Source: Acidobacteriota bacterium
GTDB lineage: Bacteria; Acidobacteriota; UBA890; WLXD01
DNA length: 64,000 nt
Direction of reading: 5' to 3'
NCBI GenBank assembly: GCA_012103255.1
Contig: WLXD01000004.1
Coordinates: 310,001 to 374,000 of the forward strand
This document shows, piece after piece, positions 9,888 to 62,970 of the stretch. Under the pieces are notes generated by a model that worked only from the letters and a program-made list of their open reading frames with translations, searched no databases and had not been told where the DNA came from. Positions within the stretch are counted from its first letter, which is position 1, and every line of letters begins with the position of its first letter. A program made the translations under genes and the position numbers.

Positions 9888-9964
9888 CGGGGTGTAGCGC
9901 AGCCTGGCAGCGCACCTGCTTTGGGAGCAGGGGGTCGGAGGTTCAAATCCTCTCACCCCGACCA
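9888..9964 (+). tRNA. tRNA-Pro (anticodon TGG)
   Basis: A 77-base cloverleaf. The acceptor stem CGGGGTG (9888-9894) pairs with CACCCCG (9954-9960). A is the discriminator at 9961, and CCA is encoded at 9962-9964. The anticodon stem CCTGC (9915-9919) pairs with GCAGG (9927-9931). The seven-base loop 9920-9926 places TGG at 9922-9924. The T-arm has GGTTCAAATCC. Confidence 0.97.
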
Positions 9965-11225: not shown

Positions 11226-13664
11226 CTACTCGGCGCGCAGCGCCCTGACCGGATCGAGTTGTGCTGCCGAACGTGCCGGCAACCAGTTGGCCGCGAGCGC
11301 CGCCGCCAGCAACAGGCTGCTGCCGCCAAGGAAAACGACCGGGTCGAGAGGGCTGATCCCGTAGAGAAACACCGCCATGAACCGTGTCGCGAATCCCGCC
11401 ACCGCGAGACCAAGAACCAGCCCGGCAATCGGTTCACGCATGCCCTGGCGCACGACCATGCCGAGCAGTGCGCGGGGCTCGGCGCCCAACGCGAGTCGGA
11501 CGCCGATTTCGGCGTGACGGCGACGCACCATCTGGGCCGTGACGCTGTACATGCCGATCCCGGCAAGCAAGATCACGATTGCCCCCATACTCGCACCGAG
11601 CGTCGCCGCAACGCGCTGGGGCAACAGTCCGAGATCGGCGTACGAACGAAGCGAGACCACCTCGAGAATGGGCAGATCCGGCGCAATGGTCGCCGCCGTG
11701 GCTCGGATCGAGGCGATGGTGCCAGCGGTGTCGCCGTCGATACGCGCCACGAGGAACGGCGCGGCGCTGTAGCGCTGTGCGTGCGCCACGTAGATGAAGA
11801 ACGGCGTCTCCTCCGTCAGCGTCTGGTACTTCGAATCGGCAGCTACCGCCTTGACCCGATACTCGGTCTCGCCGAGCGTGAAGACCTGGCCGACGGCATC
11901 GCCATTCCAGAAACGCTCCGCCGCGTGGGCATTGATGATCGCAACTCTTGCGGCGTCCGCGTTGTCGAGCTCGTCGAAGTCCCGACCGGCGACGAGGTCG
12001 ATCCCCATGGTCTCGAAGTAGCCCGGACCGACGATATTGGTACTGGCCGGGAAGCCTCCGTCCTCGTCAGGCGGCTGGTGCCCCGCCACACGCAGCCCGC
12101 CGAAGCCCATGTTCGACGGCAATCCAAGCGGTAGCAACACGCTGAGTCCCGCCCGCGTGACGCCGGGCAGCGCCTCGGCGCTCTCGGCCAGGTTTGCGAG
12201 CACCGCGGCGCCCGCGGCTTCGTCCAATCCAGTCAGGGCGGCATCGAGCCCGATCGCGTATACGCCGGTCGCATCGAAGCCGAGATCGATCGCGGCCGCG
12301 CGGTTCAGCGCGCGCACGAACAACCCTGCCGTGACGACCAGAACTACGGTCAAGGCCACCTGTGCAACGGTCAGCGCGCGACGCCCGAGCAATCTGGAGC
12401 CGGCGACGGCCCCCTCCCCTTTGAGCGCCGGCACGAGATCTGCGCGGCTGACGCGTGCCGCCGGGCCGAGGCCGGCGAACAGCCCCGCCAGTCCGGTCGC
12501 GAGCAGCGCGTAGGTCATCACTCGCGCGTCGAGCTGCGGAGAGAACGCAATGTCGAACGGAGGCGGAATAGGAAGGTCAATGGACCGCATCGCCGCCATC
12601 GCCCCCGCGGCGCCCACCGTCCCGAGAACGCCGCCCAACCCCACGAGCAAGAACGACTCTGTGAGCAGCTGCTGCACGATGCGGCCCCGCCCGGCTCCGA
12701 GCGCAGACCGCACGGCCACCTCCCTGCGTCGCGCGAGCGACCTGGCCAGGATCATCCCGGCCACGTTGACGCACGCCACGGCAAGCACCAATCCCACGAC
12801 CACACTCAATACGACCATGAAGAGCTGGACCATGCCGGCTAGATCAACCGGCAGTGTGCCCAGGGCATTGGCAACCACACCCTGCCCTTCGAGCTCGTCG
12901 GGCCGGGAGTCCACCAGTGCGGCCATCTGGGCGTCGAGCTCCGCGCGTGCTGTCCCGAGGCTCGCGCCGTCCGCGAGTCGACCGACGCCGAGGATCATGT
13001 TGTTGCGCCAGCCTTGCAGCGTCTCCCCGGAGATGAATCCACCGGCCTCCATGCCGAGCGGCACCCACGCGTCCGCGCGGATGACCGCGAGGCTTCCCGT
13101 GAATCCGGGAGCCGCTACGCCGACGACCGCCGCACGCGTCCCATTGATGCGCACTTCGCGCCCGATGACCGCCGGATCCGTCTCGAAGCGATCGCGCCAG
13201 AGCGCGTCGCTGATTACGACGATTGAGGGCGTGCCGCCCGCACCGGCCTCGCCGGGAGCGAAACCGCGGCCCAGCTGCATCGGCACACCGAGCACGTCGA
13301 AGTAGTTGTCCGTCACCTGAAGACCCATCAGAGCGGCAGGCGAATCGCCCGCGCCTATCCCCATCGGAGCGAAGGTCCAGCCAGCGACTTCGACCGTCCG
13401 GCTGCTCTCGCGCAAAGCGTCGAGCGCCGGGTAGGCGAAAGTATCGGAGCCGCGCCCGTCCTGGCTACGGCCGATCTCGACGAGGGCCGCCGGCTCCGTG
13501 ACCCCCGCGAGCGGGCGCAGAAGCAGCGCGTCTGCGAGGCCGAAGATCGCCGTGTTGGCGGCGATCCCAATCGCGATACACGACGCCGCGGCAAGCGTGA
13601 ACCCGGGCGCGGCAGTGAGACGACGAAAGGCGTAGCGGAGGTCGGCCAGGAGGCTGTCGGACAT
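11226..13664 (-). CDS. ADOP-type ABC permease, no N-terminal prefix domain
   Basis: 812 residues, the shortest intact permease in the window. The first membrane segment is at about residues 17-42 (IAIGIAANTAIFGLADALLLRPL). A MacB-like extracytoplasmic domain follows, then three segments ending in VACVNVAGMILARS. The second half repeats this plan and ends in the typical LDPVRALRAE. Family knowledge: ADOP proteins are MacB/FtsX-type permeases with both halves in one chain, encoded without an ATPase; export of peptides or lipids is presumed. Unlike the other five, it lacks a cytosolic prefix of 80-100 residues. Its ATG follows AGAGGG by about 5 bases. It is divergent from the truncated PadR gene and shares the 38-bp dyad between them. 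Confidence 0.9.
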   Translation of the reverse strand: MSDSLLADLRYAFRRLTAAPGFTLAAASCIAIGIAANTAIFGLADALLLRPLAGVTEPAALVEIGRSQDGRGSDTFAYPALDALRESSRTVEVAGWTFAPMGIGAGDSPAALMGLQVTDNYFDVLGVPMQLGRGFAPGEAGAGGTPSIVVISDALWRDRFETDPAVIGREVRINGTRAAVVGVAAPGFTGSLAVIRADAWVPLGMEAGGFISGETLQGWRNNMILGVGRLADGASLGTARAELDAQMAALVDSRPDELEGQGVVANALGTLPVDLAGMVQLFMVVLSVVVGLVLAVACVNVAGMILARSLARRREVAVRSALGAGRGRIVQQLLTESFLLVGLGGVLGTVGAAGAMAAMRSIDLPIPPPFDIAFSPQLDARVMTYALLATGLAGLFAGLGPAARVSRADLVPALKGEGAVAGSRLLGRRALTVAQVALTVVLVVTAGLFVRALNRAAAIDLGFDATGVYAIGLDAALTGLDEAAGAAVLANLAESAEALPGVTRAGLSVLLPLGLPSNMGFGGLRVAGHQPPDEDGGFPASTNIVGPGYFETMGIDLVAGRDFDELDNADAARVAIINAHAAERFWNGDAVGQVFTLGETEYRVKAVAADSKYQTLTEETPFFIYVAHAQRYSAAPFLVARIDGDTAGTIASIRATAATIAPDLPILEVVSLRSYADLGLLPQRVAATLGASMGAIVILLAGIGMYSVTAQMVRRRHAEIGVRLALGAEPRALLGMVVRQGMREPIAGLVLGLAVAGFATRFMAVFLYGISPLDPVVFLGGSSLLLAAALAANWLPARSAAQLDPVRALRAE

Positions 13665-13745
13665 CGGACCCTCTGAAGGCTATGCGGAAAGAGCACGGGG
13701 TTCGGAGTAACAACGCACGGCCGACTCGAATGGTTACGTGCGAAC

Positions 13746-13805
13746 TTGCAGTTCGCCGAGAGCAAAGACTACAGTGTGGGTATTGACTAATAACCACACT
13801 GTAGT
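13746..13805 (+). promoter_or_regulatory. PadR promoter with 38-bp palindromic operator
   Basis: Arms ACTACAGTGTGG (13768-13779) and CCACACTGTAGT (13794-13805) are a perfect 12-bp inverted repeat. TATT and AATA inside the 14-base gap share the same centre, so 16 of 19 pairs match. TTGCAG (13746-13751) and TACAGT (13770-13775), 18 bases apart, could be -35 and -10 for the PadR gene. The dyad also lies about 104 bases upstream of the divergent permease and may serve both. Confidence 0.7.
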
Positions 13806-13822
13806 TATTGAGGAGTTCCGCC

Positions 13823-14065
13823 GTGCAGCATCTTGGTGAATTCGAGCAGGTCGTACTGTTCGCTGCGCTCCGGCTCGACGCAGACGCCTACGGCGTGACG
13901 ATCCGGCAGGAGATCGAGGCGCACGGCGGACGGCGACGCAAGTACTGCCAGCTCACGGCTGCCGGAGCCGCGGCCCTACAGAACGCCTACGGCCGTGTTC
14001 GGGACATGGCCGACGGTGTGCTTGGTGACCTCGCGCTCCGGGCCGAGGGCGGAGACGACGAGTGA
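13823..14065 (+). CDS. PadR-family regulator with internal in-frame deletion of the recognition region
   Basis: 80 residues from GTG 13823, which has GAGGAG 7 bases upstream; an upstream TTG at 13808 lies before that site. It aligns well with the 113-residue PadR at 54104: LGEF-E, DAYGVTI and EIEA at the front, then RR-KY/F and the helical dimerisation tail. About 34 residues between EIEA and GGRR are missing. In the intact relative that stretch contains GAVYTALARLQKNGY, the recognition helix and start of the wing. The ORF is otherwise intact and its stop overlaps the permease start (GTGA). It may be a non-DNA-binding dimerisation partner or a decaying gene. Confidence 0.8.
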   Translation: MQHLGEFEQVVLFAALRLDADAYGVTIRQEIEAHGGRRRKYCQLTAAGAAALQNAYGRVRDMADGVLGDLALRAEGGDDE

Positions 14066-16734
14066 CCTCCGCTTCCTCGAGGTCTCCTCGCTTGGCACGG
14101 GCACTCCTGCGCCGTCTCATCGCCGAGCCCGCGCGCGAGTTCGTGCTCGGGGACCTAGAAGAAGAGTTCCACGATCACGTTCTGCCCCGTGACGGCCTCC
14201 GCGCCGCTCGGCGCTGGTACTGGACCGCCACATTCGCGTCGGTTCGTGCCGTTCACCGCGACGCTCCACACTCTCGCACGTCTATCCCCCGCCCCGAGCG
14301 CTTCATGAATCAGCTACTCCAGAACGTCCGTCACACCGTCCGGAGCTGGGCGCGCCAGCCGTCGATCACGGCGATCGCGCTCCTCGCTCTCACTCTTGGG
14401 ATCGGCGCCAATACCGCCATCTTCAGCGTGGTCTACAGCGTCCTGCTCAACCCGCTGCCGTATCCGGACGACGAGCAACTGATGACGGTTTGGCTCGACA
14501 ACACGCTCCAGGGCTGGCCCCAGGACGTGACGTCGTATCCCAACTTCGCAGACTGGCGGGAATGGAACGAGACGTTCTCGGACATGGCCGCCGTGAGCAC
14601 GCGCGCGGACAATCTCACCGGCATCGGCGACCCCGCACGACTTCGCGCGCAGGTTGTGAGTTCCAGCTTCTTTGAAGTCCTGGGCGTCTCACCGCTCCTC
14701 GGGCGCGGATTCACCGAGGAAGACTGGGACAACGATGCGAGACTCGTGGTGCTCAGCTTCGCGAGCTGGCAACAGCGCTTCGGTAGCGACCGCGCGGTGC
14801 TCGGACGAACGATCGATCTCAATGGGGACCCGCACACGATCATCGGAGTGATGCCTGGTGGATTCGAGTACACGCGGGCGGTAGACCACTGGCGACTGTT
14901 CCCTGCGAGCGTCCGTGAGTCTTCGCGCGGCCAGCTGTGGTTGGAAGTGGCCGGTCGTCTCCAACCCGGAGTCGCGGTCGAGACTGCCCGCGCTGACATG
15001 ACCCGCGTCGCGGAGAGACTCCAACGCGAGTACCCCGACTTCTATGAAGGCTATGGGGTGAGCATCGTGCCGCTCCACGAGCAGGTGGTGGGCGATGTCC
15101 GCCCGGCGTTGATGGTGCTCCTCGGAGCGGTCGGTCTGGTTCTCCTCATATGCTGCGCCAACGTGGCCAACCTGATGTTGGTCCGGGCGAGTTCCCGGCG
15201 CCGCGAGCTTGGGGTCCGAGCCGCTCTGGGCGCAGATCGCGGCCGCATATTTGGCCAACTGCTGACCGAGGCCGTCATGCTCGCGTCTCTGGGCGGGGCA
15301 CTCGGGCTTGGCGCGGCCCAGGCGGCGGTCTCGTACCTCCGCACCGCCGAACCGGACCTGCCGAGGCTTGCGGAAGTGGCGCTGCACTTCCCGGTTCTGC
15401 TGTTCACTTTGGGCATCGCGCTCGCAACCGGTCTTGTGTTCGGTGTCGTTCCTGCGCTCCGCGCATCGCGGCCGGATCTCACCGAGGTACTCGGTGACCG
15501 TGGCACCGGCGAAGCCGGCCCTGGCGCCGCGCGCCTTCGAGCTGCACTCGTGGTCGCAGAAATCGGTCTCGCCATCGTGCTGCTGGTCGGCGCCGGGCTG
15601 ATGCTCCGTAGCTACGCCGCCCTTCTCAATGTGAGCCCGGGGTTCGAGGCCGAAGGTGTGCTGAGTTTCCGCGTCTCATTGAGCGGCCCCAACTACCAGG
15701 ACGGCGACGACGCGCGACGTTACTTCGACGAAGCCATGGAGCGTCTCGGCGCGCTGCCGGGGGTTGGCGAGGTCGGTGGAGTGCGCAACCTGCCCATGGG
15801 GGCCGGCTTTTCGTCGGGCTGGTTCACCATCGAGGGGCGTCCCCCGGTGCCTCGAGCGCAGCTCGAAGAAGTCAAGATGAACACGGTGACGCGGGGCTAC
15901 TTCGACACCATGCGAATACCGCTGCTCGATGGTCGGGAATTCGTGGACACCGACAACGCGGACACCGAAACCGCCGTTGTCGTGAACGACACCTTCGTGC
16001 GGCAGTTCTTCCCCGACGAGGACCCGATCGGGCAACGGTTTCTGTACGGCATCCCCGACTTCTACGCGGACCCCGAGAATCCGGATGCGGCGCTGCCGTG
16101 GACCCGGATCGTCGGCGTGGTAGGTAGCGTGCAGCATCGCGGGCTCGATCAGGCCGCGGAGTCCGAGGTGTTCGCGGTGTTCGATCAGGCGCCGGCAGGC
16201 ACGCTCACGTTCGTTCTACGTGCCGACAATCCGAGTCAGCTCGCAGGCCCTGCGCGGGAGGCCATCTGGGCCATCGATCCAAACTTGCCCATCTCCAACA
16301 TGCAGACTCTCTCCGAGATCGTTGGAGCCACCACTTCGGCACGGCGATTCAATATGACCCTCCTGGCATTGTTCGCCGGGGTCGCCATCGTGCTCGCCGC
16401 CACGGGGATCTACGGCGTCATGTCCTACTGGGTAAACCAGCAGACGCGCGAGATCGGGGTCAGGATGGCGCTTGGAGCTGAACGTGGAGACGTTCTGCGC
16501 ATGGTGATGCGGAGAACCGCGGCGATCGTTGCCGCGGGCGTCGCGCTGGGCGTACTCGGCGCGCTGGCTACGGGCTCGGTGATGTCGAGTCTTCTCTTCG
16601 GAGTCGCCGCCGCAGATCCGATCACGTTCGTCGCAGTCGTGGGCGTCCTCGCCGGCGTCGCGATGCTTGCGAGCCTGGTGCCAGCGGTACGCGCCTCCGG
16701 CGTGGATCCGATGCACGCACTTCGCGACGACTGA
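14062..16734 (+). CDS. ADOP-type permease with N-terminal permease-prefix domain 2
   Basis: 890 residues, GTG start overlapping the PadR stop by 4 bases. Residues 1-81 form a cytosolic prefix with EFVLGDLEEEFHD, the signature of the NCBIfam 'permease prefix domain 2' group. The permease core begins at about residue 82 (MNQLLQNVRHTVRSWARQPS), with the first segment in [19 protein letters not shown]. The first-half segments include LICCANVANLMLVRA and the conserved GVRAALGADRGRI loop. The second half ends VDPMHALRDD. No Walker ATPase or MacA-like adaptor is nearby. The core matches the family at full length. Confidence 0.93.
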   Translation: MTSASSRSPRLARALLRRLIAEPAREFVLGDLEEEFHDHVLPRDGLRAARRWYWTATFASVRAVHRDAPHSRTSIPRPERFMNQLLQNVRHTVRSWARQPSITAIALLALTLGIGANTAIFSVVYSVLLNPLPYPDDEQLMTVWLDNTLQGWPQDVTSYPNFADWREWNETFSDMAAVSTRADNLTGIGDPARLRAQVVSSSFFEVLGVSPLLGRGFTEEDWDNDARLVVLSFASWQQRFGSDRAVLGRTIDLNGDPHTIIGVMPGGFEYTRAVDHWRLFPASVRESSRGQLWLEVAGRLQPGVAVETARADMTRVAERLQREYPDFYEGYGVSIVPLHEQVVGDVRPALMVLLGAVGLVLLICCANVANLMLVRASSRRRELGVRAALGADRGRIFGQLLTEAVMLASLGGALGLGAAQAAVSYLRTAEPDLPRLAEVALHFPVLLFTLGIALATGLVFGVVPALRASRPDLTEVLGDRGTGEAGPGAARLRAALVVAEIGLAIVLLVGAGLMLRSYAALLNVSPGFEAEGVLSFRVSLSGPNYQDGDDARRYFDEAMERLGALPGVGEVGGVRNLPMGAGFSSGWFTIEGRPPVPRAQLEEVKMNTVTRGYFDTMRIPLLDGREFVDTDNADTETAVVVNDTFVRQFFPDEDPIGQRFLYGIPDFYADPENPDAALPWTRIVGVVGSVQHRGLDQAAESEVFAVFDQAPAGTLTFVLRADNPSQLAGPAREAIWAIDPNLPISNMQTLSEIVGATTSARRFNMTLLALFAGVAIVLAATGIYGVMSYWVNQQTREIGVRMALGAERGDVLRMVMRRTAAIVAAGVALGVLGALATGSVMSSLLFGVAAADPITFVAVVGVLAGVAMLASLVPAVRASGVDPMHALRDD

Positions 16735-16752
16735 CCCGTCAAGGAAGGCTCC

Positions 16753-16808
16753 AACCTCCGGGCCCGAACGCGCATCTAACCGATTAGATCGTTCACCGCC
16801 CGGAGGTT
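16753..16808 (+). promoter_or_regulatory. Nested hairpin covering the ribosome site of the DUF4097 gene
   Basis: AACCTCCGGGC (16753-16763) is the exact inverse complement of GCCCGGAGGTT (16798-16808). The second arm contains the GGAGG that serves the ATG at 16812. Inside the loop, ATCTAA (16774-16779) and TTAGAT (16784-16789) form a second perfect stem around CCGA. In RNA the structure would hide the ribosome site; as DNA the inner element could also be an operator. Confidence 0.6.
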
Positions 16809-16811
16809 CCC

Positions 16812-17837
16812 ATGCGCCGTAGTCGTTCATCCATTCGCATCGCCGCGGCCCTGCTCGCGCTCAGCACCGCACTGGGATGCACCGTTGCTCTCGCGCAGGA
16901 TCAGGACGAACAGCGCGCTCAGTGGCTCGCCGAAACGTTCCCGGCCAATGGTCGCGATCTCGCAATCGAGGTGGGTGACGCGGACGTCGTGGTGCGCAAT
17001 GGCGACGTTGACGAGATTACGTTCGAAGTGTGGTTCCGTGCACGCGACCTGAACGCGGCACGGGACCGTGTAGAGCGGATGAACTTCCGCGCGGAAGACG
17101 ACGGCAACACGGTACGCATCCTCTCTGACGCGGTTGACGACGACTGGCGCGACTGGGATTGGCGGCGCTGGGGCAGCTTCGACGTCGTGGTCGAAGCGAT
17201 CGTTCCGGAAGCGATCGATGCTCACATCGTCTCGGGCGATGGTGACGTGTCGGTGCAGCGGCTGAACGGTCGCATCACAGTGATCGCCGAGGACGGCGAC
17301 GTGCTGGCCGACTCACTGACCGGCAGCATCGAACTACGCAGCAACGACGGCGACCTTGGCGTGCGATCGGTTGGCGGTGCGAGCCTGATCGCCCACACCG
17401 ACGATGGCGACGTGACCCTCGGAGACCTCACCTCCGGCACGGTTGATATCCACACGGACGACGGCGACATCCAGGGCACGCGCCTGAGTGCGGGCAGCAG
17501 CCAGGTGGTGACGGGTGATGGCGACATCGTGATGGATTCAGTGGCTGGCGAGTTCGACGCTCGCACCGGAGATGGTGACATCCATGTGAGCATCGACCGA
17601 CTCGACTCGACCTCGCTCACCACGACCGAAGGCGACATCACCATCCGCGCCGGTGCCCAGCTCGCGGCGAACCTCGACTTGCGCGGCCCGGGGCTGTCGA
17701 TGAGAGAGGCCGTGCGTGCGAACTTCAAAGGCCGCGTGGAGCGGCGCCTGATCGAGGGCGCGCTCAATGGTGGCGGCCCCGCGCTGCAGGCGCGCACGCA
17801 AGACGGCACGATCGTTCTCCGCCTGAACCGAGACTAG
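16812..17837 (+). CDS. DUF4097-type beta-repeat secreted protein (DGD repeats)
   Basis: 341 residues. A signal peptide (1-29, ending ALGCTVALAQ) directs it to the periplasm or surface. An early Cys in that signal could be a lipobox, but the context fits poorly. From about residue 130 the chain is a series of short beta strands with the repeat D-G-D-V/I (GDGDVSV, EDGDVLA, NDGDLGV, DDGDVTL, DDGDIQG, GDGDIVM, GDGDIHV, EGDITI) about every 18-20 residues, as expected for a DUF4097 beta-helix. Function is unknown; family members sit near PadR regulators and permeases. It lies 77 bases after an ADOP gene and before the next PadR, so it may be cargo of, or a stress sensor for, that cassette. Confidence 0.88.
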   Translation: MRRSRSSIRIAAALLALSTALGCTVALAQDQDEQRAQWLAETFPANGRDLAIEVGDADVVVRNGDVDEITFEVWFRARDLNAARDRVERMNFRAEDDGNTVRILSDAVDDDWRDWDWRRWGSFDVVVEAIVPEAIDAHIVSGDGDVSVQRLNGRITVIAEDGDVLADSLTGSIELRSNDGDLGVRSVGGASLIAHTDDGDVTLGDLTSGTVDIHTDDGDIQGTRLSAGSSQVVTGDGDIVMDSVAGEFDARTGDGDIHVSIDRLDSTSLTTTEGDITIRAGAQLAANLDLRGPGLSMREAVRANFKGRVERRLIEGALNGGGPALQARTQDGTIVLRLNRD

Positions 17838-17860
17838 CCCCGCGGGGCGGTTCCGTTTCC

Positions 17861-17910
17861 TTGCATGTTCCAGATGGATAGTTTATCTATCTATGTAGAT
17901 ATTCTATCCA
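17861..17910 (+). promoter_or_regulatory. PadR promoter with 36-bp operator dyad
   Basis: Outer arms TGGATAG (17875-17881) and CTATCCA (17904-17910) and inner arms TATCTA (17884-17889) and TAGATA (17896-17901) share one centre at 17892.5. Together they give a 36-bp dyad with only two mismatched pairs between the arms. TTGCAT (17861-17866), a 17-base spacer and TATCTA (17884-17889) make a plausible promoter whose -10 lies inside the dyad. Confidence 0.65.
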
Positions 17911-17924
17911 CGGAGCAAGAACGC

Positions 17925-18227
17925 ATGGCTCGACGACTCGGAACTTCCACCCTGGCCATCTTGCGCGCCCTCGCAGAAGGGCACCGCTACGGATTCGACA
18001 TCATGGAAGTCACGGGACTCCCGGGCGGGACCGTGTATCCAGCACTGGCGAAGCTCGAGCGCGATCGACTGGTCTCATCCAGCTGGGAGGACCCCACGAT
18101 CGCGCACGATGAGAAGCGGCCGCCACGCCGCTACTACGCGCTTTCGACCGCCGGAGACGAGCGCCTCCGATCGGAACTCGCCTGGCTCGCCGGCACGATC
18201 GGCAATGCTGCCGACGCACGCTCCTGA
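17925..18227 (+). CDS. PadR-family transcriptional regulator
   Basis: 100 residues from ATG 17925; CGGAGC lies 9 bases upstream. The frame is open back to 17865, but that extension would run through the operator, so I reject it. The winged-helix shows STLAILRALAEGHRYGFDIM, recognition-helix region GTVYPALAKLERDRLV, and the wing with RPPRRYYALSTAG. A short C-terminal helix follows (ERLRSELAWLAG). PadR proteins are usually repressors that release DNA on binding a small molecule. The dyad upstream suggests self-regulation. It is followed after 9 bases by an ADOP gene. Confidence 0.93.
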   Translation: MARRLGTSTLAILRALAEGHRYGFDIMEVTGLPGGTVYPALAKLERDRLVSSSWEDPTIAHDEKRPPRRYYALSTAGDERLRSELAWLAGTIGNAADARS

Positions 18228-18236
18228 CCGGCGCCG

Positions 18237-20858
18237 ATGTCTTCACCTGACTCCCACGGTAGTCCGCCGAACACGCTGGGCGCGAGACTCGCGTTTGGCC
18301 TCGTTGCATTCACCCGTTTGATCGTTCCAAGCAGCGATCGACGTCGTTGGACAGCTGAGTGGCGCGCCGAGATCTGGTACCGAGCCAGGCACGGACGTCC
18401 GCTCAAGCCCACGATCGCCACCTTCCCCCACGCTGTCAGCCTGCGCCGGCAGCACTGGAGCCCCGACTCCATGTTTCAGGACTTTCGCTACGCACTCCGC
18501 CAGATTCGAAAAGCACCCGGTCTCAGCGCACTGGTGATCGCAACGATGGCGCTCGGCATCGGCGCCAACTCGCTCGTCTACAGCGTCCTGTCGTCCACGG
18601 TTCTGAAACCACTGCCCTTCGAGGATGCCGATCGAATCGTCTATCTGTGGCGGCAGCACCCGACAAACTCGTGGTGGATCACACCGCAGATGGAGGACGT
18701 CGTCCGATGGCGCGAGTCCGTCGGCGGACTGGAGCGGATCGCAACGCTCAGCGGCCATACGTTCACCGTAACGGGGCTGGACGAGCCCGAGCGCATCGAT
18801 GGTGCGCGCGTGAGCCCCGAGATCTTCGCGTTGCTGGGCGTGGAACCCCTCGTAGGTCGCACGTTCGCGCCACAGGAAGCGGTGACGGACCCGAACGTGG
18901 TGATCGTTTCGCACCGGTTCTGGCAAAACCACCTGGGCGGCGCGGACACCGCACTCGGCACGACGATCCAGCTGGACGACACGCCGTACGCCGTGATCGG
19001 GGTGATGCCGTCAGGGTTCCGAATGCAGTCGCCGTTCGCGCTCTCCCAGGTATGGACGCCGTTGGACGAAGCCGGTGCGGAACGAGGCATCAACGCGATT
19101 GGTTTGATGACCCGCGACGCCTCGATCGACCAGGTGAATGAACAACTCGCCGCATTCAGCCAGGCCGAGGAGGACGTCGAGCACGCTGTGGACGCGTGGC
19201 CAGCCGTCGCGCGACGACCGGCTGACTTCCTCAGCAGCAGCTACACCCGCACCGTCTGGGCGATGCAGGGTGCGGTTGCCCTTGTGCTGCTGATCGCGAC
19301 CACCAACGTCGTGAACCTACTGCTGGCACGGGGAAGCACGCGTCAGCAAGAAATGGCAGTGCGGTCGGCGATCGGCGGGTCAACATTCCGCCTCGCTCGG
19401 CAGTCGCTCACCGAAACGCTGACTCTGACGGCCGTCGGCGGCCTGGCGGGTTGGGCTATTGCGGCGGGCGGTGTAGCTCTCCTCGACACGCTACGACCCC
19501 AAGAACTCAGCAGCCTGGCGACGCTTCGTCTCGACGACACGGTGGCCGCGGCGACCGCCGCCGTAACCGTGCTGGCAGGTCTCCTCGCAGGCGCCCTGCC
19601 CGCATTGCAAGGGAGCAGCGGCAATCTCCAGGCCAGAATGGCCGCGCTCAGCGGGCGGACATCCGAAGAACCCAACAAGCGACGAGCCCGGAGCGCCCTC
19701 GTGGTTTTCGAGGTCGCCCTGTCGACGATTCTGGTGGTCACCGCGGGACTGCTGGTTGGCAGCTTCCTGCACTTGCAGGACGTCGATCCCGGCTTCGAGT
19801 CCGACAACCTGCTCACCATGCGAGTCAGCATCTCGGCCGCCAAGTATGGCGATGCCGCCGCAACCGAGCAGTTCTGGGACGCCACCCGAGCGGCGGTCCA
19901 AACAGCCGTCGGGCCGCGCGCATCCAGCGTCACTCTGAGCGCCGGGGTACCACCGCAAATGGGCGTGGAGTTCGGGCTGCCTGAGCGCGAAGACGGACTC
20001 GAGGTGGAGAGCAGTTCCGACATCACCGCTGCGTCATGGGTCGACCGAAGCTACTTCGAAACGCTCGAGATCCCCTGGGTCGCGGGCGGCACATTCCCGC
20101 CAACCACTGAGGATGACCCGGATCTCCCGATCGTGATCGATCAGGCATTCGCCGACCAGATCTGGCCCGGCGAAGACGCGCTCGGCAAACGGGTAACGTT
20201 CGGGAGCGACACCTGGCGCCGCGTGGTCGGGATCGTCAGCAACGTGAAGGCATTCGGTTTGATGACGCGCACGGAGCAGCGGCAGGTCTACTACGCCCTC
20301 GACGCACGCGACTCGTTCCGCGAACTCATGATCACGGTTCGCACGACGGAGAATCCGCTGGAGCTAGCGGCCGCGGTCCGCGCGGCGGTGTGGAGCGTCG
20401 AGCCCGAGGCGCCGATCACGGAGCTGCAAAGCATGCGGGAACGGCTCGTGGACACGATCGCGCTGCCGCGCTTCAATGCCATGCTCATGGCAGGTCTGGC
20501 TGCAGTAGCTCTCGGCCTGGCTCTCGTTGGCGTCTACGGGGTGCTCTCGTACTCGGTAGCAAAGCGCACCCATGAACTCGGAGTCAGGATGGCGCTGGGG
20601 GCTGGACGATCGACCGTCCTGGCGCTCGTGGGGCGCACGAGTTTCGCCCTGATCGGCATCGGCTTGGCACTGGGCGTCGCCGGGAGCGCAGCAGCAACTC
20701 GATTGCTATCGAGTCTGCTGTACGGCGTGACGCCCGGACAGCCGGCAGCGTATGCGGTGGCGGCGCTGGCGTTGATACTCGTTGGCGTCGCCGCAACCTG
20801 GATTCCGGCCGCGCGTGCCACTCGCGTGGACCCGGCGGTGGCGCTGCGCGACGACTAG
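18237..20858 (+). CDS. ADOP-type permease with a distinct N-terminal prefix
   Basis: 873 residues, ATG 9 bases after the PadR stop. The prefix (1-80) does not carry LGDLEEE. It has RLIVPSSDRRRWTAEWRAEI, a basic amphipathic stretch like the other ADOP prefix class. The core starts at MFQDFRYALRQIRKAPGLSA (about 79), and the first segment contains ALGIGANSLVYSV. Middle segments include TTNVVNLLLARGSTRQQEM, where the usual C-A-N is T-T-N. The end is VDPAVALRDD. Its stop overlaps the end of the convergent nudC by 4 bases. Confidence 0.92.
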   Translation: MSSPDSHGSPPNTLGARLAFGLVAFTRLIVPSSDRRRWTAEWRAEIWYRARHGRPLKPTIATFPHAVSLRRQHWSPDSMFQDFRYALRQIRKAPGLSALVIATMALGIGANSLVYSVLSSTVLKPLPFEDADRIVYLWRQHPTNSWWITPQMEDVVRWRESVGGLERIATLSGHTFTVTGLDEPERIDGARVSPEIFALLGVEPLVGRTFAPQEAVTDPNVVIVSHRFWQNHLGGADTALGTTIQLDDTPYAVIGVMPSGFRMQSPFALSQVWTPLDEAGAERGINAIGLMTRDASIDQVNEQLAAFSQAEEDVEHAVDAWPAVARRPADFLSSSYTRTVWAMQGAVALVLLIATTNVVNLLLARGSTRQQEMAVRSAIGGSTFRLARQSLTETLTLTAVGGLAGWAIAAGGVALLDTLRPQELSSLATLRLDDTVAAATAAVTVLAGLLAGALPALQGSSGNLQARMAALSGRTSEEPNKRRARSALVVFEVALSTILVVTAGLLVGSFLHLQDVDPGFESDNLLTMRVSISAAKYGDAAATEQFWDATRAAVQTAVGPRASSVTLSAGVPPQMGVEFGLPEREDGLEVESSSDITAASWVDRSYFETLEIPWVAGGTFPPTTEDDPDLPIVIDQAFADQIWPGEDALGKRVTFGSDTWRRVVGIVSNVKAFGLMTRTEQRQVYYALDARDSFRELMITVRTTENPLELAAAVRAAVWSVEPEAPITELQSMRERLVDTIALPRFNAMLMAGLAAVALGLALVGVYGVLSYSVAKRTHELGVRMALGAGRSTVLALVGRTSFALIGIGLALGVAGSAAATRLLSSLLYGVTPGQPAAYAVAALALILVGVAATWIPAARATRVDPAVALRDD

Positions 20859-25088: not shown

Positions 25089-26813
25089 ATGCCTGACCAA
25101 CTCGGTTTCAGCCGCGCGGTAGCGCTGACCATTCTTCTGTCGCTCGCGGCTACCTTGCTGCTGGCCGGAACCGCTGCGTTTCCCCTTCTCGATCGCGACG
25201 AAGCCCGGTTTGCCCGCGGCACGATCGAGATGCTGGATCGCGGCGATTGGATCGGGCCGCACTTCAACGACGAGAGCTTCGTGGGCGAGCCACCCTTGAC
25301 CTACTGGCTGATGTCGGCGGGGTACGGCGCGCTCGGCTACAACGAACTCGGTGCCAGGCTCTACTCGGTGATCGCCGCGATCGGCATGACCGCCCTCATC
25401 TTCCTGTTCGGTCATCGCGTCGCCGGCAAATCCGCAGCGTTCGCGGCCGCGTTCGCGTGGTTGACCTGCTCGCAGGTGTTCCTGCTCGGCCGCCTTGCGA
25501 TCGCCGACATGTCCATGATCCTCGCGATCACCGTGATCCACTGGGCCTTGTGGGAACTCCTCTTCGAGGACGGAGGCCGCGCCTTCGAGATCGCTCTCTG
25601 GCTTGCCGCTGCCGGTGGGTTCCTCGCTGCGGGTCCAGCAGCACTCATCACACCGGTCATCACCCTGGCCGTCCTGAGGGCTGCAACCGGGCCTGACCAG
25701 TTGAACTGGCGGAGAACGGCCGCCAGCTGGGGCCTTCCTCTCGCACTGACCCTGGTCGGGATCTGGGCAGTTCCGATGCTGCGCACTGGAGACGCAACCT
25801 GGAGCATCGATCCCGGCGTCGGCTCGCCGGCGCCCACCTACTACCTGGCCGCCATCTTCGTCAGCCTCTTTCCGTGGTCACCAAATTTCGGGCAATTCGC
25901 GAAGGCGCTCCGGGGCCGCTGGCGAGATCGCCGGACTGCCTTCCTGCTCAGCTGGATCATCGGCCCTCTCGTGATCCTCGGCTTCTCGGCAGGCCAGTTC
26001 TCGGAGTACCTGCCGGCGATGCTTCCCGCGCTGCTCCTGCTGCTGTTTCGCCACGGCTATGACCCCACCACCTTCGGTCTACCATCGCGATGGTTCTACT
26101 GGGGACTCCATGCGACGGCAGCGATCGCCCTCCTCGGAGTGGCCGTCTATGGCAAGTGGATCGACGTCCCCGCGCAGCTGCGCGACCTGAAGATCGCCGC
26201 AGCTGCGCTCGCCGGAGCCCTGTTGGCACTGCAGGCTGCGGCGGTTCTGTTTGCACGCGCCCCGCTTCGCCGACTCAATCAGCTCGCCGCTCCCACACTC
26301 CTGGTCGTGGTCGCAGCGTCGGCCACTCATGTCTTTGCGTTCACGATCCGTCCGATCACCGCGCCCCTTCGCCTTCTTCCCTACTACGACCATGTCGAGC
26401 CGTCGGCCCTTCACACCGCAACGGGATACGCGGAACCGAGCCTTGTCTTCTATGCCGACCGGAACTGGCGATTGAACTCGCAGCCGACCCGGAGCGAGAT
26501 CGCCGTCGGCGGCCTCTTCGTATACGGCGGCGCGGAGTGGGGCATGCGCCAGCTGTTCTCGCCCGGGGCCGAAGAGACCCGCCGACAAGCCGTTGCGTCC
26601 TGCGGCACCGTGGCGGCGGCCGCCACGTCGACGGCGAGCAGCGCGCGCGCAGTGGTTGACGAACGGGCTCAGGCGGCCGGTGCGCCCGCGTTCTTGATCG
26701 AAAGCGACTTGTCGCGCGCCGTTGTCTGCGGCTTCAACTTCGGGCGTCTGACGTGGACCGAAGTCGTCGTCTTCTATCGCGAATCGACGTCCCGATCGCC
26801 AGCCCGACCGTAG
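25089..26813 (+). CDS. ArnT/PMT-like (GT83-type) membrane glycosyltransferase
   Basis: 574 residues with about 11-12 membrane segments in the first 420. The first external loop has LLDRDEARFARGTIEML; the Asp-Glu pair is the catalytic motif of GT-C enzymes using polyprenyl-phosphate sugars. WIGPHFNDESFVGEPPLTYW follows, as in ArnT and its relatives. The C-terminal 150 residues are mostly soluble. The enzyme probably adds a sugar to lipid A or another envelope lipid. Its neighbour, the convergent PAP2 phosphatase, acts on polyprenyl or lipid phosphates, which fits the same pathway. The genes overlap by 80 bases at their 3' ends. Confidence 0.87.
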   Translation: MPDQLGFSRAVALTILLSLAATLLLAGTAAFPLLDRDEARFARGTIEMLDRGDWIGPHFNDESFVGEPPLTYWLMSAGYGALGYNELGARLYSVIAAIGMTALIFLFGHRVAGKSAAFAAAFAWLTCSQVFLLGRLAIADMSMILAITVIHWALWELLFEDGGRAFEIALWLAAAGGFLAAGPAALITPVITLAVLRAATGPDQLNWRRTAASWGLPLALTLVGIWAVPMLRTGDATWSIDPGVGSPAPTYYLAAIFVSLFPWSPNFGQFAKALRGRWRDRRTAFLLSWIIGPLVILGFSAGQFSEYLPAMLPALLLLLFRHGYDPTTFGLPSRWFYWGLHATAAIALLGVAVYGKWIDVPAQLRDLKIAAAALAGALLALQAAAVLFARAPLRRLNQLAAPTLLVVVAASATHVFAFTIRPITAPLRLLPYYDHVEPSALHTATGYAEPSLVFYADRNWRLNSQPTRSEIAVGGLFVYGGAEWGMRQLFSPGAEETRRQAVASCGTVAAAATSTASSARAVVDERAQAAGAPAFLIESDLSRAVVCGFNFGRLTWTEVVVFYRESTSRSPARP

Positions 26814-31696: not shown

Positions 31697-33088
31697 GTGA
31701 CTGGTCAAACTTCTGTCTGGCAAGACATCAAAGCCGCCATCAGCGGCACTCACGAGGACTACACGCAAGGGCCCATCGGCCGTGCGGTGCTGTTGCTCGC
31801 CGTGCCAATGGTCCTCGAGACCGCGATGGAGTCTCTGTTCGCGATCGTCGACGTGTTCTTCGTCTCCAAGCTCGGTCCCAGCGCCGTTGCCACGGTCGCC
31901 CTGACCGAGTCGATGCTGACGATCGTCTTCACCGTGGCTTTGGGCCTGTCCATCGGGGTCACCGCAATGGTTGCCCGCAGGATTGGGGAACAGGACCCCG
32001 ATGGGGCTGCGCGCGCCGCCGTCCAGGCGATCGCGCTGGGCATCGTGATTGCCGCGCTGATCGGAACGGTCGGTGCGTACTTCGCCGAGGATCTCCTGGC
32101 GCTCATGGGGGCATCCGACGACGTCATCGGCCATTCGATCTACACGAAGGTCATGATGGGTGGGAACGCCACCCTGCTTCTGCTGTTCCTGATCAACGCG
32201 GGGTTCCGCGGCGCTGGTGACGCAGCCATCGCCATGCGGGTGTTGTGGCTGGCCAACGGCATCAACATCTTCCTCGATCCGGCACTGATTTTCGGTTGGG
32301 GGCCTTTCCCCGAAATGGGGATTGCCGGAGCAGCCGTCGCGACCAACATCGGGCGCGGCACGGCAGTCGTGGCGCAGTTCTACCTGCTGTTCAGAGCCGG
32401 CGGACGCCTCGAGGTCAACTGGAGCCACGTGACCATCATCCCGTCGCTGATGTGGCGACTCGTGCGACTCTCGAGCACTGGGATGTTCCAAGTGTTCATC
32501 AGCATGGCGAGCTGGGTCGGACTCGTCCGGATTCTCGCGGGGTTTGGCGACCAGGTCCTGGCCGGCTACGCCGTCGGCATCCGGCTGATCTTGTTTGCGT
32601 TGCTGCCGAGTTGGGGAATGAGCAACGCGGCCGCAACGATGGTCGGCCAGAACCTCGGCGCCGGGAAACCCGATCGCGCCGAGGCAGCAGTCTGGCGCGC
32701 CGGTCTCTACAACATGTACTTCCTCGGCGGCATCGGCCTGCTGTTCATCGTGTTCGCGCCGCAACTCGTCGCGTTCTTCACGACCGATCCGGAACCTCTG
32801 CGGTATGGAATCAACTGCCTACGCATTGTCAGCTGCGGCTTCCTGTTCTACGCCTATGGCATGGTGTTGACGCAGTCGTTCAATGGAGCAGGTGATGCCT
32901 GGACGCCGACCTGGATCAATCTTGGGTGCTTCTGGGCATTCGAATTGCCTTTCGCCTACATCCTGGCCACGCAGCTCGGCGTGGGCCCGAACGGTGTGTT
33001 CATCGCAATGACGGTCGCCTTCTCCGCCCTGGCGGTGGTTTCGGCGGTCCTGTTCCGGAGAGGAACCTGGAAGACCACAGCGCTATGA
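31697..33088 (+). CDS. MATE-family multidrug efflux transporter
   Basis: 463 residues, GTG start with GGAG seven bases upstream. Twelve membrane segments are visible in two related halves; LAVPMVLETAMESLFAIVDV and NAAATMVGQNLGAGKPDRAE are typical of the NorM/DinF group. It exports cationic drugs or metabolites by proton or sodium antiport. Its TGA overlaps the ATG of the ankyrin-repeat gene (ATGA), so the two are translated together. Confidence 0.93.
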   Translation: MTGQTSVWQDIKAAISGTHEDYTQGPIGRAVLLLAVPMVLETAMESLFAIVDVFFVSKLGPSAVATVALTESMLTIVFTVALGLSIGVTAMVARRIGEQDPDGAARAAVQAIALGIVIAALIGTVGAYFAEDLLALMGASDDVIGHSIYTKVMMGGNATLLLLFLINAGFRGAGDAAIAMRVLWLANGINIFLDPALIFGWGPFPEMGIAGAAVATNIGRGTAVVAQFYLLFRAGGRLEVNWSHVTIIPSLMWRLVRLSSTGMFQVFISMASWVGLVRILAGFGDQVLAGYAVGIRLILFALLPSWGMSNAAATMVGQNLGAGKPDRAEAAVWRAGLYNMYFLGGIGLLFIVFAPQLVAFFTTDPEPLRYGINCLRIVSCGFLFYAYGMVLTQSFNGAGDAWTPTWINLGCFWAFELPFAYILATQLGVGPNGVFIAMTVAFSALAVVSAVLFRRGTWKTTAL

Positions 33089-49514: not shown

Positions 49515-52500
49515 TGTCGTCAATTCCGCTCCCCGCGCTCCGACTCCGTCACCTCTCCACCGCGCTCGTAGTCCTGATGGCGGCCACGATCGGCCATCCG
49601 GCCATGTCGGCCCAGCAGGATCAGCGGGTCGTGGTCGAGCCTGCCGCGCTCGAACTCTCGATCGGCGAGACCGCGCAACTGAACGCACACGTCGTTGATG
49701 CAACGGGTAGCGCGGTCGCGGACGCCCCGATTCTCTTTTACTCACTAGCCCGCAGCGCCGTGAGCGTGACGCCGGATGGCCGCCTCGAAGCGCATGCTGC
49801 CGGCACCTTCCAGGTCGCGGCGCTGTCGCCGCGCGAGATCGTCCCCGGAGAACCGGCCGACCGAACAGGGCGCTACGACTCAGGCATTCGAACGCTGATT
49901 ACCGTCACCGTGGCTCCTCTTCCGATCAGCTCTCTCGACTGGTCCGGGACTCCCACTGAGCTCCCCGTAGGCGCGAGCGTTCCGTTGCACGTGGTCGCGC
50001 TCGATAGCCGCGGAGCGGAGATCTCGACGCCGGTCGAGGTCACCTCTTCAAACCCGGAGGTTCTCAGCGTTGGCCCGACGGGTCTGCTGCGCGCTCTCCG
50101 GGCAGGATCCGCAACGTTGCGCGGAGGTGCCGAACTTCCGTCGGATCGCCTCGTTGTGACGATTGTCCCCAACCCGGTGTCGGCCCTCGAGATGGACGAC
50201 ATGCACGCGAACGTCGTGACCGGTGAGGTCGTGGATGCGTCTGCGACACCCAGCGGTTCCGATGGTAGTGCGCTGACGGGTCATCCACCCACCTACTCGT
50301 TAGAGAGTTGGCCGGACCCGGCGCGGCCTGAATCGGTTGGCGCCGGAGCACCGGCGATGGTCACTGAAGACGGCAAGTTCGTTGCAGAAAAGCCCGGGAT
50401 CTACGCGGTCACCGCCAGGGTCGGCGACGTTCGTCGGACGCGGATGATCACCGTGACTCCGCGGAATGTGGGCCGCAGCGTCGAGATGCTCGGGCAGGCG
50501 CCCATCCGCGACCGTGTGACCTCGGACCTGTGGGTATGGGAAGCCTCCGACGGTCGCGACTACGCCATCGTCGGCACGTGGAACGCCGAGGGACACGCCT
50601 ACATCTACGACGTCACCGACCCCGGCAACATGGTCAGAGTCGAAGAGGTCCAGGTGGACGCACGGACCGTGAACGACGTGAAGGTCTCCGAAGACGGCCG
50701 CGTTGCGGTGATCTCTCGTGAGGGCGCATCCAATCGCCGCAACGGGCTCGTGATCCTGGACGTGTCCGATCCGACCGACGTTCAGATCCTGGCGCAGTAC
50801 GACGATCAACTCACGGGCGGCGTCCACAACGTGTTCGTCCACGATGACCACGTATACGCCGTGAACAACGGGCGTCGCGTCGACATCATCAACATCGAGG
50901 ACCCGCGTAGTCCCTATCGGGTGGGCCGATTCGAAACTGACACTCCGGGACGCTCCGTGCACGACGTCTGGGTACACAACGGCGTCGCTTATGAGGCCGG
51001 TCGCACGGACGGCCTCGTGGTCTTCGATGTAGGCGGCGGTGGCGCGGGCGGCGCGCCGAACAATCCGGTAGAGATGGCTCGAATTCCGCAGCTCACCGGC
51101 TGGAACCACAGCGCCTGGCCGTTCGAGAGTCCGTCCACAGGCAAGCGATACGTGCTCGGAGGTGACGAGGCCTTCTACAGCCATCCGATGGCGCCGGAAT
51201 CGGGCGGCATCAACTGGCGCGAAAAGCTGCCGTCACGCGCCAAGGGGTGGATCCATTTCGTGGACATCACCGATCCGGCCGAGCCGCGCGAGACTGCCCG
51301 GTACCAGGTGCCGGAGTCCGGTCCGCACAACTACTGGATCGACGAGGAGCGCGAACTGCTCTACATCGGTCACTTCGACGCCGGTCTGCGGGTTGTCGAC
51401 ATCTCCGGAGAACTCGTCGGCGACCTGTACCGTCAGGGCCGCGAGGTGGCGCATTTCTTCACGGATGACCCCGAAGGGTTCATCCCGAACGCGCCCTTCG
51501 TGTGGGGTCCGCAGCCGCACAAAGGCACGATCTTCCTGGCCGACTTCTCGAGCGGCCTGTGGGCCGTGCGACTTGCTCCGAACCCGTTCGTATCGACGGG
51601 GAACACCACGAACGCGTTCGGATTCGCGGAAAACCGCGCAGATGCGGATGCAGACGGCCCGACTGTGACCCCGGTCGAGGTTGACCTTGCGGAAGGCGAA
51701 TCGATCGCACTCGACGCGGCTACCTCAGATTCGACTCCGGTGCTCTTCTTCTCCCGCGCACCCCAGGCCGTCTCCGTCACCCCCGTCGGGGTCGTGACGG
51801 CGCACCGCGCCGGCGAATACGAGATCGTCGCACTGGCTCCTACCGCAAGTGTCGACGCGGACTCGGCCACTGCAAGCGTCGCAGGGCGTCGAACCGTGAT
51901 CGTGGTCCGCGTCGATCCTGCTCCGGCCTCAGAGCTCGAGTTGACCAATGTGCCGACCACGGTCGTCGCGGGCTCGGCGCTCACAGTCGGCGCGCGGTTC
52001 ACCGACGGCACCGGCCGCGTTCGCGATCTCCGTCCTCATATCGTCCTCGATCAGGGCCAGTACTCCAACCGCTGGGTTCCCCAAGGCGCGATCTTCGAGG
52101 GTTCATCCAACGCACATCCGTTCTATCGGCGCGAGCGGCCCGACACCTACCCGTACGAGGCCGCCGGATTGCTCCTGGCCGAAGAGGCTGGCGACGTCAT
52201 GCTGCGAGCGACCGACAACGCCGTCGCCAATCGGCACGAAAGGGCGCTGCGCATCGTCCCGAACCGGACCCAGCAACTCGAACTAACGACCCACGCGACC
52301 ACCATCAGCACCGGCGACGTGCTCCGGGTCAACGCTCGCGCGCTCGACGCTGCCGGCGCGACCGTCCCGCCTGCTGAGAGCGCGCTGCGCTTCGCGCTTC
52401 GCGCCTATCCCGATGCAGACCGGGCGGAGGGTCGCGCTGCGGGTGCCTCCGCACAGATTCTCCGTGACGGACGCTTCGTCGCGGAGCAACCCGGCCTCTA

Positions 52501-59912: not shown

Positions 59913-59974
59913 TTGACGGTGCCATCGAGTTCACTCTATATTCCGTTCATCGGAACATTCCGCTGAACGGAATA
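59913..59974 (+). promoter_or_regulatory. PadR promoter with 36-bp near-perfect palindrome
   Basis: TTGACG (59913-59918) and TATATT (59937-59942), 18 bases apart, form the promoter. The operator has outer arms TATTCCGTTCA (59939-59949) and TGAACGGAATA (59964-59974) and inner arms CGGAA (59951-59955) and TTCCG (59958-59962), all on centre 59956.5. Only two pairs of 18 fail. The -10 overlaps the first arm, so binding would block the promoter. Confidence 0.8.
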
Positions 59975-62935: not shown

Positions 62936-62970
62936 GAAAGGGCGGCCCCGGTGGGCCGCCCTTCTTTGTT
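62936..62970. terminator. Bidirectional intrinsic terminator between permease and ahcY
   Basis: AAGGGCGGCCC (62938-62948) pairs perfectly with GGGCCGCCCTT (62953-62963) around CGGT. CTTTGTT follows on the plus strand, and the minus-strand side has TTTCTGTTC. It separates the two convergent genes. Confidence 0.88.

Follow-up and report, generated by a model that had tools for sequence, protein, structure and literature searches.

A palindrome over the ribosome-binding site of a DUF4097 gene in an Acidobacteriota bacterium: a possible promoter/operator region that may shield the gene from read-through translation

The ribosome-binding site of a DUF4097 gene in an Acidobacteriota bacterium lies in one arm of a 56-nt nested palindrome, directly downstream of a permease gene. 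We propose, at a probability of roughly 0.3, that these 56 nt are the promoter/operator region of the DUF4097 gene with a transcription start inside the palindrome, and that only mRNA reading through from upstream is silenced. The palindrome, which lies where an extra permease segment ends downstream, would then serve to control the gene locally. Its AT-rich inner dyad would be part of the promoter/operator, related to a site in the promoter of the nearby regulator gene PadR2, and PadR2 or a related protein would bind it as DNA. Repressor sites of the PadR-operator kind usually overlap promoters, and a dyad overlapping the promoter would place the start within the palindrome, at approximately 16783-16790, so that the gene's own mRNA would lack the 5' arm and its Shine-Dalgarno (SD) sequence would be left largely free. 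The outer stem could arise only in RNA that reads through from the upstream permease, where it would block DUF4097 translation, and the gene would thereby be uncoupled from the extra genes and answer to its own repressor. All positions are those of the window, the whole 64,000-nt stretch of DNA that was analysed.

The original prediction had described a perfect 11-bp stem that includes the GGAGG and, in its loop, a perfect 6-bp stem, and both are exact in the sequence. The elements of the palindrome are as follows.

16753-16763, forward strand: 5' arm of the outer stem, AACCTCCGGGC; AACC at 16753-16756 doubles as a putative -35 element
16766-16770, forward strand: 5' arm of a middle 5-bp stem, from folding
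16773-16779, forward strand: putative -10 element CATCTAA, overlapping the inner dyad (a weak promoter reading)
16774-16789, forward strand: inner dyad ATCTA-N6-TAGAT, a 6-bp stem with a 4-nt loop; candidate N6-form DNA operator with no N2 core
16790-16794, forward strand: 3' arm of the middle stem, from folding
16798-16808, forward strand: 3' arm of the outer stem, GCCCGGAGGTT, containing the SD GGAGG at 16802-16806

The outer arms are 100% complementary over 11 bp with 34 nt in between, and 5 nt separate the GGAGG from the DUF4097 ATG (16812). In the inner stem 16774-16779 pairs with 16784-16789 around the loop CCGA. Folding adds the middle stem (16766-16770 with 16790-16794, 5 bp), which had not been part of the original prediction, and a 3-nt bulge. 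The whole fold, which begins 18 nt past the stop codon of the upstream permease, has 22 bp and a calculated energy of -30 kcal/mol for the 56 nt. Folded with its flanks it reaches a z of -3.1, with 1 of 200 shuffles equally good; the cropped 56 nt, a crop picked by structure, reach -6.0 with 0 of 200. In silico, RNA spanning the full hairpin hides the DUF4097 ribosome site, as had been claimed.

Profile searches confirmed the predicted identities of the DUF4097 gene and of the permease before it. The genes and the second dyad that enter the argument are these.

11226-13664, reverse strand: divergent permease of the ADOP family, which directly adjoins DUF4097 in the two same-genus relatives
13823-14065, forward strand: PadR1, a PadR remnant of 80 aa (PF03551, E 0.0054, below cut-off; profile positions 48-74 of 75)
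14062-16734, forward strand: ADOP-family permease upstream of the hairpin (TIGR03434), in the segment that is extra relative to two same-genus genomes
16812-17837, forward strand: DUF4097 (Toastrack) protein, 341 aa, with a signal-peptide-like start by eye (PF13349, E 2e-22)
17885-17900, forward strand: dyad ATCTA-N6-TAGAT with the N2 core CTATGTAG, before the PadR2 gene (motif match)
17925-18227, forward strand: PadR2, a PadR-family regulator of 100 aa with its ATG at 17925 (PF03551, E 2.2e-11 for a longer in-frame ORF)
18237-20858, forward strand: ADOP-family permease behind PadR2 (TIGR03434)

Because its Pfam PadR match is confined to positions 48-74 of the profile, PadR1 appears to be missing most of the DNA-binding portion. 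Just before it, at 13768-13805, is an inverted repeat whose arms match perfectly over 12 bp around a loop of 14 nt, possibly the former operator of PadR1. Permeases like the one upstream of the hairpin are abundant: at least 84 matches to it at E <= 1e-120, itself counted, were found in its own 4.8-Mb genome among the 150 candidates scored out of 235. At its start (16831-16856) the DUF4097 coding sequence matches 26 nt elsewhere on the same contig at 96% (G000:C6:409865-409890) and 27 nt in genome G003 at 93%.

DUF4097 matches of some kind occur in 71 of the 99 genomes searched, and close orthologues in only two of them, the same-genus genomes G001 and G002 (54% identity; the next by E-value is 35%). 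In both, the DUF4097 gene directly adjoins the divergent permease that corresponds to 11226-13664. DNA similarity to the window ends at 13644 in each and restarts within the DUF4097 gene, at 16965 in G002 and 17152 in G001; the sole exception in the gap from 13645 to 16964 is a 49-nt permease match in G002. The window thus carries an extra segment, made up of the PadR remnant and an ADOP permease, with the hairpin at its downstream edge. Gain of the segment here would be a simpler account than two losses. In a comparison with five genomes, the five best matches elsewhere to the permease of the segment are 42-44% identical. A DNA search of 60 genomes found the hairpin region in its own genome only. 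Neither same-genus orthologue has a stem over its SD, the longest pairings of the SD region being 4 and 5 bp, and with the SD picked by eye it is unpaired at probabilities of 0.41 and 0.30.

The inner dyad ties the hairpin to PadR2. With one mismatch permitted, ATCTA-N6-TAGAT occurs in the window only at the hairpin and at 17885-17900, and two sites were obtained in 2 of 100 shuffles. Its distance to the ATG is 22 nt at DUF4097 and 24 nt at PadR2. The whole 4.81-Mb genome holds three such sites, namely the hairpin, the PadR2 promoter and a gap between an ADOP permease and a GntR-aminotransferase-type regulator. At this last site (G000 C2 777826-777841, L051), where the two genes are divergent, the palindrome arms extend to about 14 bp by eye. 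Nine genomes of the order hold seven sites. With the hairpin excluded, four of six precede PadR genes, or three of five when the site of PadR2 itself is left out, which counts as non-independent because the motif was derived from it. The PadR2 homologues preceded by the dyad are the orthologue in G001 (78% over 100 aa) and proteins of G008 (59% over 86 aa) and G003 (51% over 75 aa); the site in G004 precedes an unrelated gene, tatA-like by eye. The DUF4097 promoter of G001 has no ATCTA-N6-TAGAT dyad, though PadR2 is present in that genome.

A wider footprint was sought before relatives of PadR2. Searching 60 genomes at E <= 1e-12 gave 35 matches in 12 genomes, 30 of them with a locus (L118-L147); for 29 of these the upstream region was read, the one left out lying at the end of a contig. 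CTA-N2-TAG (CTATGTAG/CTATATAG) was found in 20 of these 29 promoters and in 0 of 245 control gene starts; the controls are unmatched, coming from one genome with 36% AT, whereas the PadR upstream regions come from 12 genomes and have 49% AT. The same comparison gave 9 of 29 against 2 of 245 for CTA-N6-TAG, 7 of 29 against 2 of 245 for CTA-N10-TAG and, PadR2 counted, 6 of 29 against 0 of 245 for TCTA-N6-TAGA. We regard CTA-N2-TAG as a candidate operator of this ADOP-linked PadR family. It marks regulation that can be tested in a genome with at least 84 strong ADOP-type permease matches and may outweigh the hairpin in usefulness. Among the matches listed in a literature search of titles and abstract openings, covering few subscription journals, none dealt with this locus or, in Acidobacteria, with operators of this PadR family. 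Separately, a near-identical long palindrome, CTCGTATACTAG...CTAGTATACGAG, stands about 100 nt before PadR genes in G001:C212 (L137), G002:C55 (L141) and G003:C47 (L134).

The hairpin dyad fits this family imperfectly. It carries ATCTA-N6-TAGAT, and with it TCTA-N6-TAGA, as the N6 form alone, and the hairpin region has no CTA-N2-TAG core. At five of the six family sites TCTA-N6-TAGA overlaps an N2 core, and the N6 form may accordingly do no more than reflect that core; N6 alone is seen at the sixth, which precedes the 51% homologue of G003. A relationship of the hairpin dyad to the PadR2-family operators is possible, and the motif evidence speaks against standard membership. The N2 form of the main footprint and the overlap at five of six sites both lowered our own estimate for a PadR-type operator, which now stands well short of even odds, and the dyad is put forward here as a candidate only.

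The outer stem was compared with other gene starts of the same genome. The set comprised 246 SD-bearing starts called heuristically in 864 kb of the 4.81 Mb, as stop-to-stop ORFs of at least 150 codons with an SD-like motif, and likely includes some false starts. The perfect stem of 11 bp is the longest that covers an SD in this set, the next being 8, 8, 8 and 7 bp, and 229 of the 246 starts have no SD-covering stem of 5 bp or more. The probability that the SD is unpaired in read-through RNA, 0.00012, is also the lowest of the 246 (median 0.39). We hold it a reasonable possibility, though below even odds, that the outer stem is a functional block on read-through translation. Two of the other starts with 8-bp SD stems, inspected in sequence and fold, have loops of 30 and 35 nt. 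At position 13267 of L112, in the same genome, an 8-bp stem enclosing an inner one takes in the SD of a gene that by eye looks secreted-protein-like and that closely follows an upstream ORF. Enrichment of an SD complement at a fixed upstream position was not seen.

Modelled transcripts show what a start inside the palindrome would do: in those beginning at 16783-16790 the SD is unpaired at 0.47-0.50, against 0.0001 in read-through RNA, which would make the outer stem a block on translation of the latter. A sigma-70 scan of 16500-18000 returned 0 matches. G001 and G002 share an ECF-like motif, AAACC-N15-GCGTC, whose exact relatives in the genome studied here precede two PadR genes and one other gene. 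The window scores 10/15 for this motif, a score equalled by 628 of 20,000 random stretches (3%) and by 12 of the 246 gene upstream regions, this one counted. AACC-N16-CGTC is not enriched at N16 over the 864 kb (49 occurrences, against 32-58 at other spacings); AACC-N16-CATCTA occurs three times including the hairpin site, against 0-2 at other spacings. The lack of spacing enrichment and the ease with which random stretches reach the score weaken the case for an ECF-type promoter. With the sigma-70 scan empty and the ECF-like match weak, the DUF4097 start site is a prediction.

The strongest competing reading is that the palindrome contains no operator and works as RNA only, constitutively holding back the translation of DUF4097 from the permease transcript. 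No sigma-70-like promoter was found between the permease and DUF4097, the inner dyad is without the N2 core of the PadR family, and SD occlusion is near complete at every modelled temperature, the unpaired probability being 0.0000 at 20 C, 0.0001 at 37 C, 0.0005 at 55 C and 0.0142 at 85 C. Such a brake would, however, nearly silence an ORF that has 54% orthologues in its genus, barring another promoter, and would leave the match between the inner dyad and the PadR2 site unexplained. We consider it doubtful, while giving it some weight.

The outer stem could also be chance. Perfect inverted repeats of at least 11 bp with a loop of at most 50 nt number seven in the window, against 0, 0, 1, 3 and 0 in five first-order random sequences; perfect 11-bp repeats other than that of the hairpin lie at 26172-26208, 31950-32004, 51852-51915, 59939-59974 and 62938-62963. 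Long perfect repeats are thus moderately common in this window of 65% GC, and the placement over the SD is the unusual part. An 11-bp pairing with the SD arm was met in 12 of 200,000 overlapping random 63-nt draws from the same genome, and the 5' arm sequence occurs three times in 800 kb outside the window, both strands counted. Roughly 0.1-0.4 SD-covering 11-bp stems are expected by chance genome-wide, which leaves room for a chance origin. The outer-arm pattern is unique within the window and the hairpin region is single-copy in its own genome, on which ground a REP/MITE-like repeated element was rejected.

These numbers feed two further readings. One takes the inner dyad as a real promoter/operator and the outer 11-bp stem as chance complementarity with no role. 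The seven repeats of such length, the recurrence of the 5' arm sequence and the unremarkable folding energy of the start region (-33.5, rank 77 of 246) all suit it, but the arm falls exactly over the SD and makes it the least accessible of the 246, and we think this reading rather unlikely. The other, which we rate as unlikely, is that everything is coincidence and neither stem is functional. In its favour are the presence of the hairpin in one genome only of those searched, the genome-wide expectation estimated above, and the chance that the N6 dyad is the by-product of another motif. Against it, two rarities would have to fall together, an SD-covering stem and a dyad found three times in 4.81 Mb, once in the promoter of the adjacent regulator.

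A role of the hairpin between the two cistrons, guarding or trimming the permease mRNA at its 3' end, is an improbable alternative: the position so soon after the permease stop codon and the strong stem suit it, but the arm that covers the SD is not accounted for. No intrinsic terminator was found in 16500-18000, scanned with loops of 3-8 nt only, and no T run follows 16808, which also counts against a 3'-end role. Weakest is the translational switch or thermosensor of the original prediction, which has the SD within the stem in its favour; we judge it very improbable. The modelled SD, which stays 98.6% paired at 85 C, disfavours a thermosensor; a conserved switch is disfavoured by the lack of a comparable stem in both same-genus orthologues, with no Rfam match at the site at gathering score. 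The sole Rfam match in the window is a tRNA at 9888-9961, and an Rfam riboswitch was accordingly rejected.

For the promoter/operator reading with an internal start, then, speak the rare dyad shared with the PadR2 promoter, the similar spacing to the ATG, the opening of the SD when transcription starts internally, the absence of the segment in relatives and a precedent in Listeria. Against it speak the missing N2 core, the unmatched controls, the weak promoter motif, the dyad sites before the G004 gene and beside the GntR-type regulator, and the dyad-free promoter of G001. A further, more speculative step would make the palindrome a dual-layer insulator at the junction of the extra segment: in double-stranded DNA a repressor would bind it over the gene's own start point, and in read-through RNA it would cover the ribosome site. 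On that view, which we think has a small chance of being right, the gene would have been cut from its ancestral promoter, closed to its new upstream neighbour and passed to the adjacent repressor. If true, a displaced gene would have regained independent control via one short palindrome, outside transposons; if wrong, the locus has an ordinary strong hairpin before one gene.

Parts of the proposed arrangement have counterparts in known systems. In insertion sequences of the IS10/IS50 type, read-through transposase mRNA is inhibited by folding back. The predicted likeness is that the start site of the gene itself falls downstream of the 5' arm, which would leave only transcripts begun elsewhere to fold over the ribosome-binding site. 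The locus described here differs insofar as the gene is chromosomal and secreted-protein-like, with no neighbouring transposase seen, its internal start is predicted rather than established, and a repressor-like dyad lies within the fold.

For ISPpu9, it is proposed that a structure in the 5'-UTR of the transposase mRNA buries the ribosome-binding site, with mutations that weaken it raising a reporter 26-fold, and that an antisense RNA opens this leader (PMC8450116). The likeness to the hairpin is a structure upstream of the start codon that buries the ribosome site, and the difference is the opening by antisense RNA proposed for ISPpu9.

In Listeria the PadR regulator LltR controls a DUF4097 gene, lmo0601 being up approximately 107-fold in the lltR mutant (PMC6624303). 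Toastrack/DUF4097 genes are likewise described as neighbours of HAAS-PadR pairs (PMC11237479). The Listeria operon has the order PadR-DUF1700-DUF4097, whereas here the order is DUF4097, PadR2, ADOP permease; the two loci share a PadR gene beside a DUF4097/Toastrack gene and, likely, transcriptional repression.
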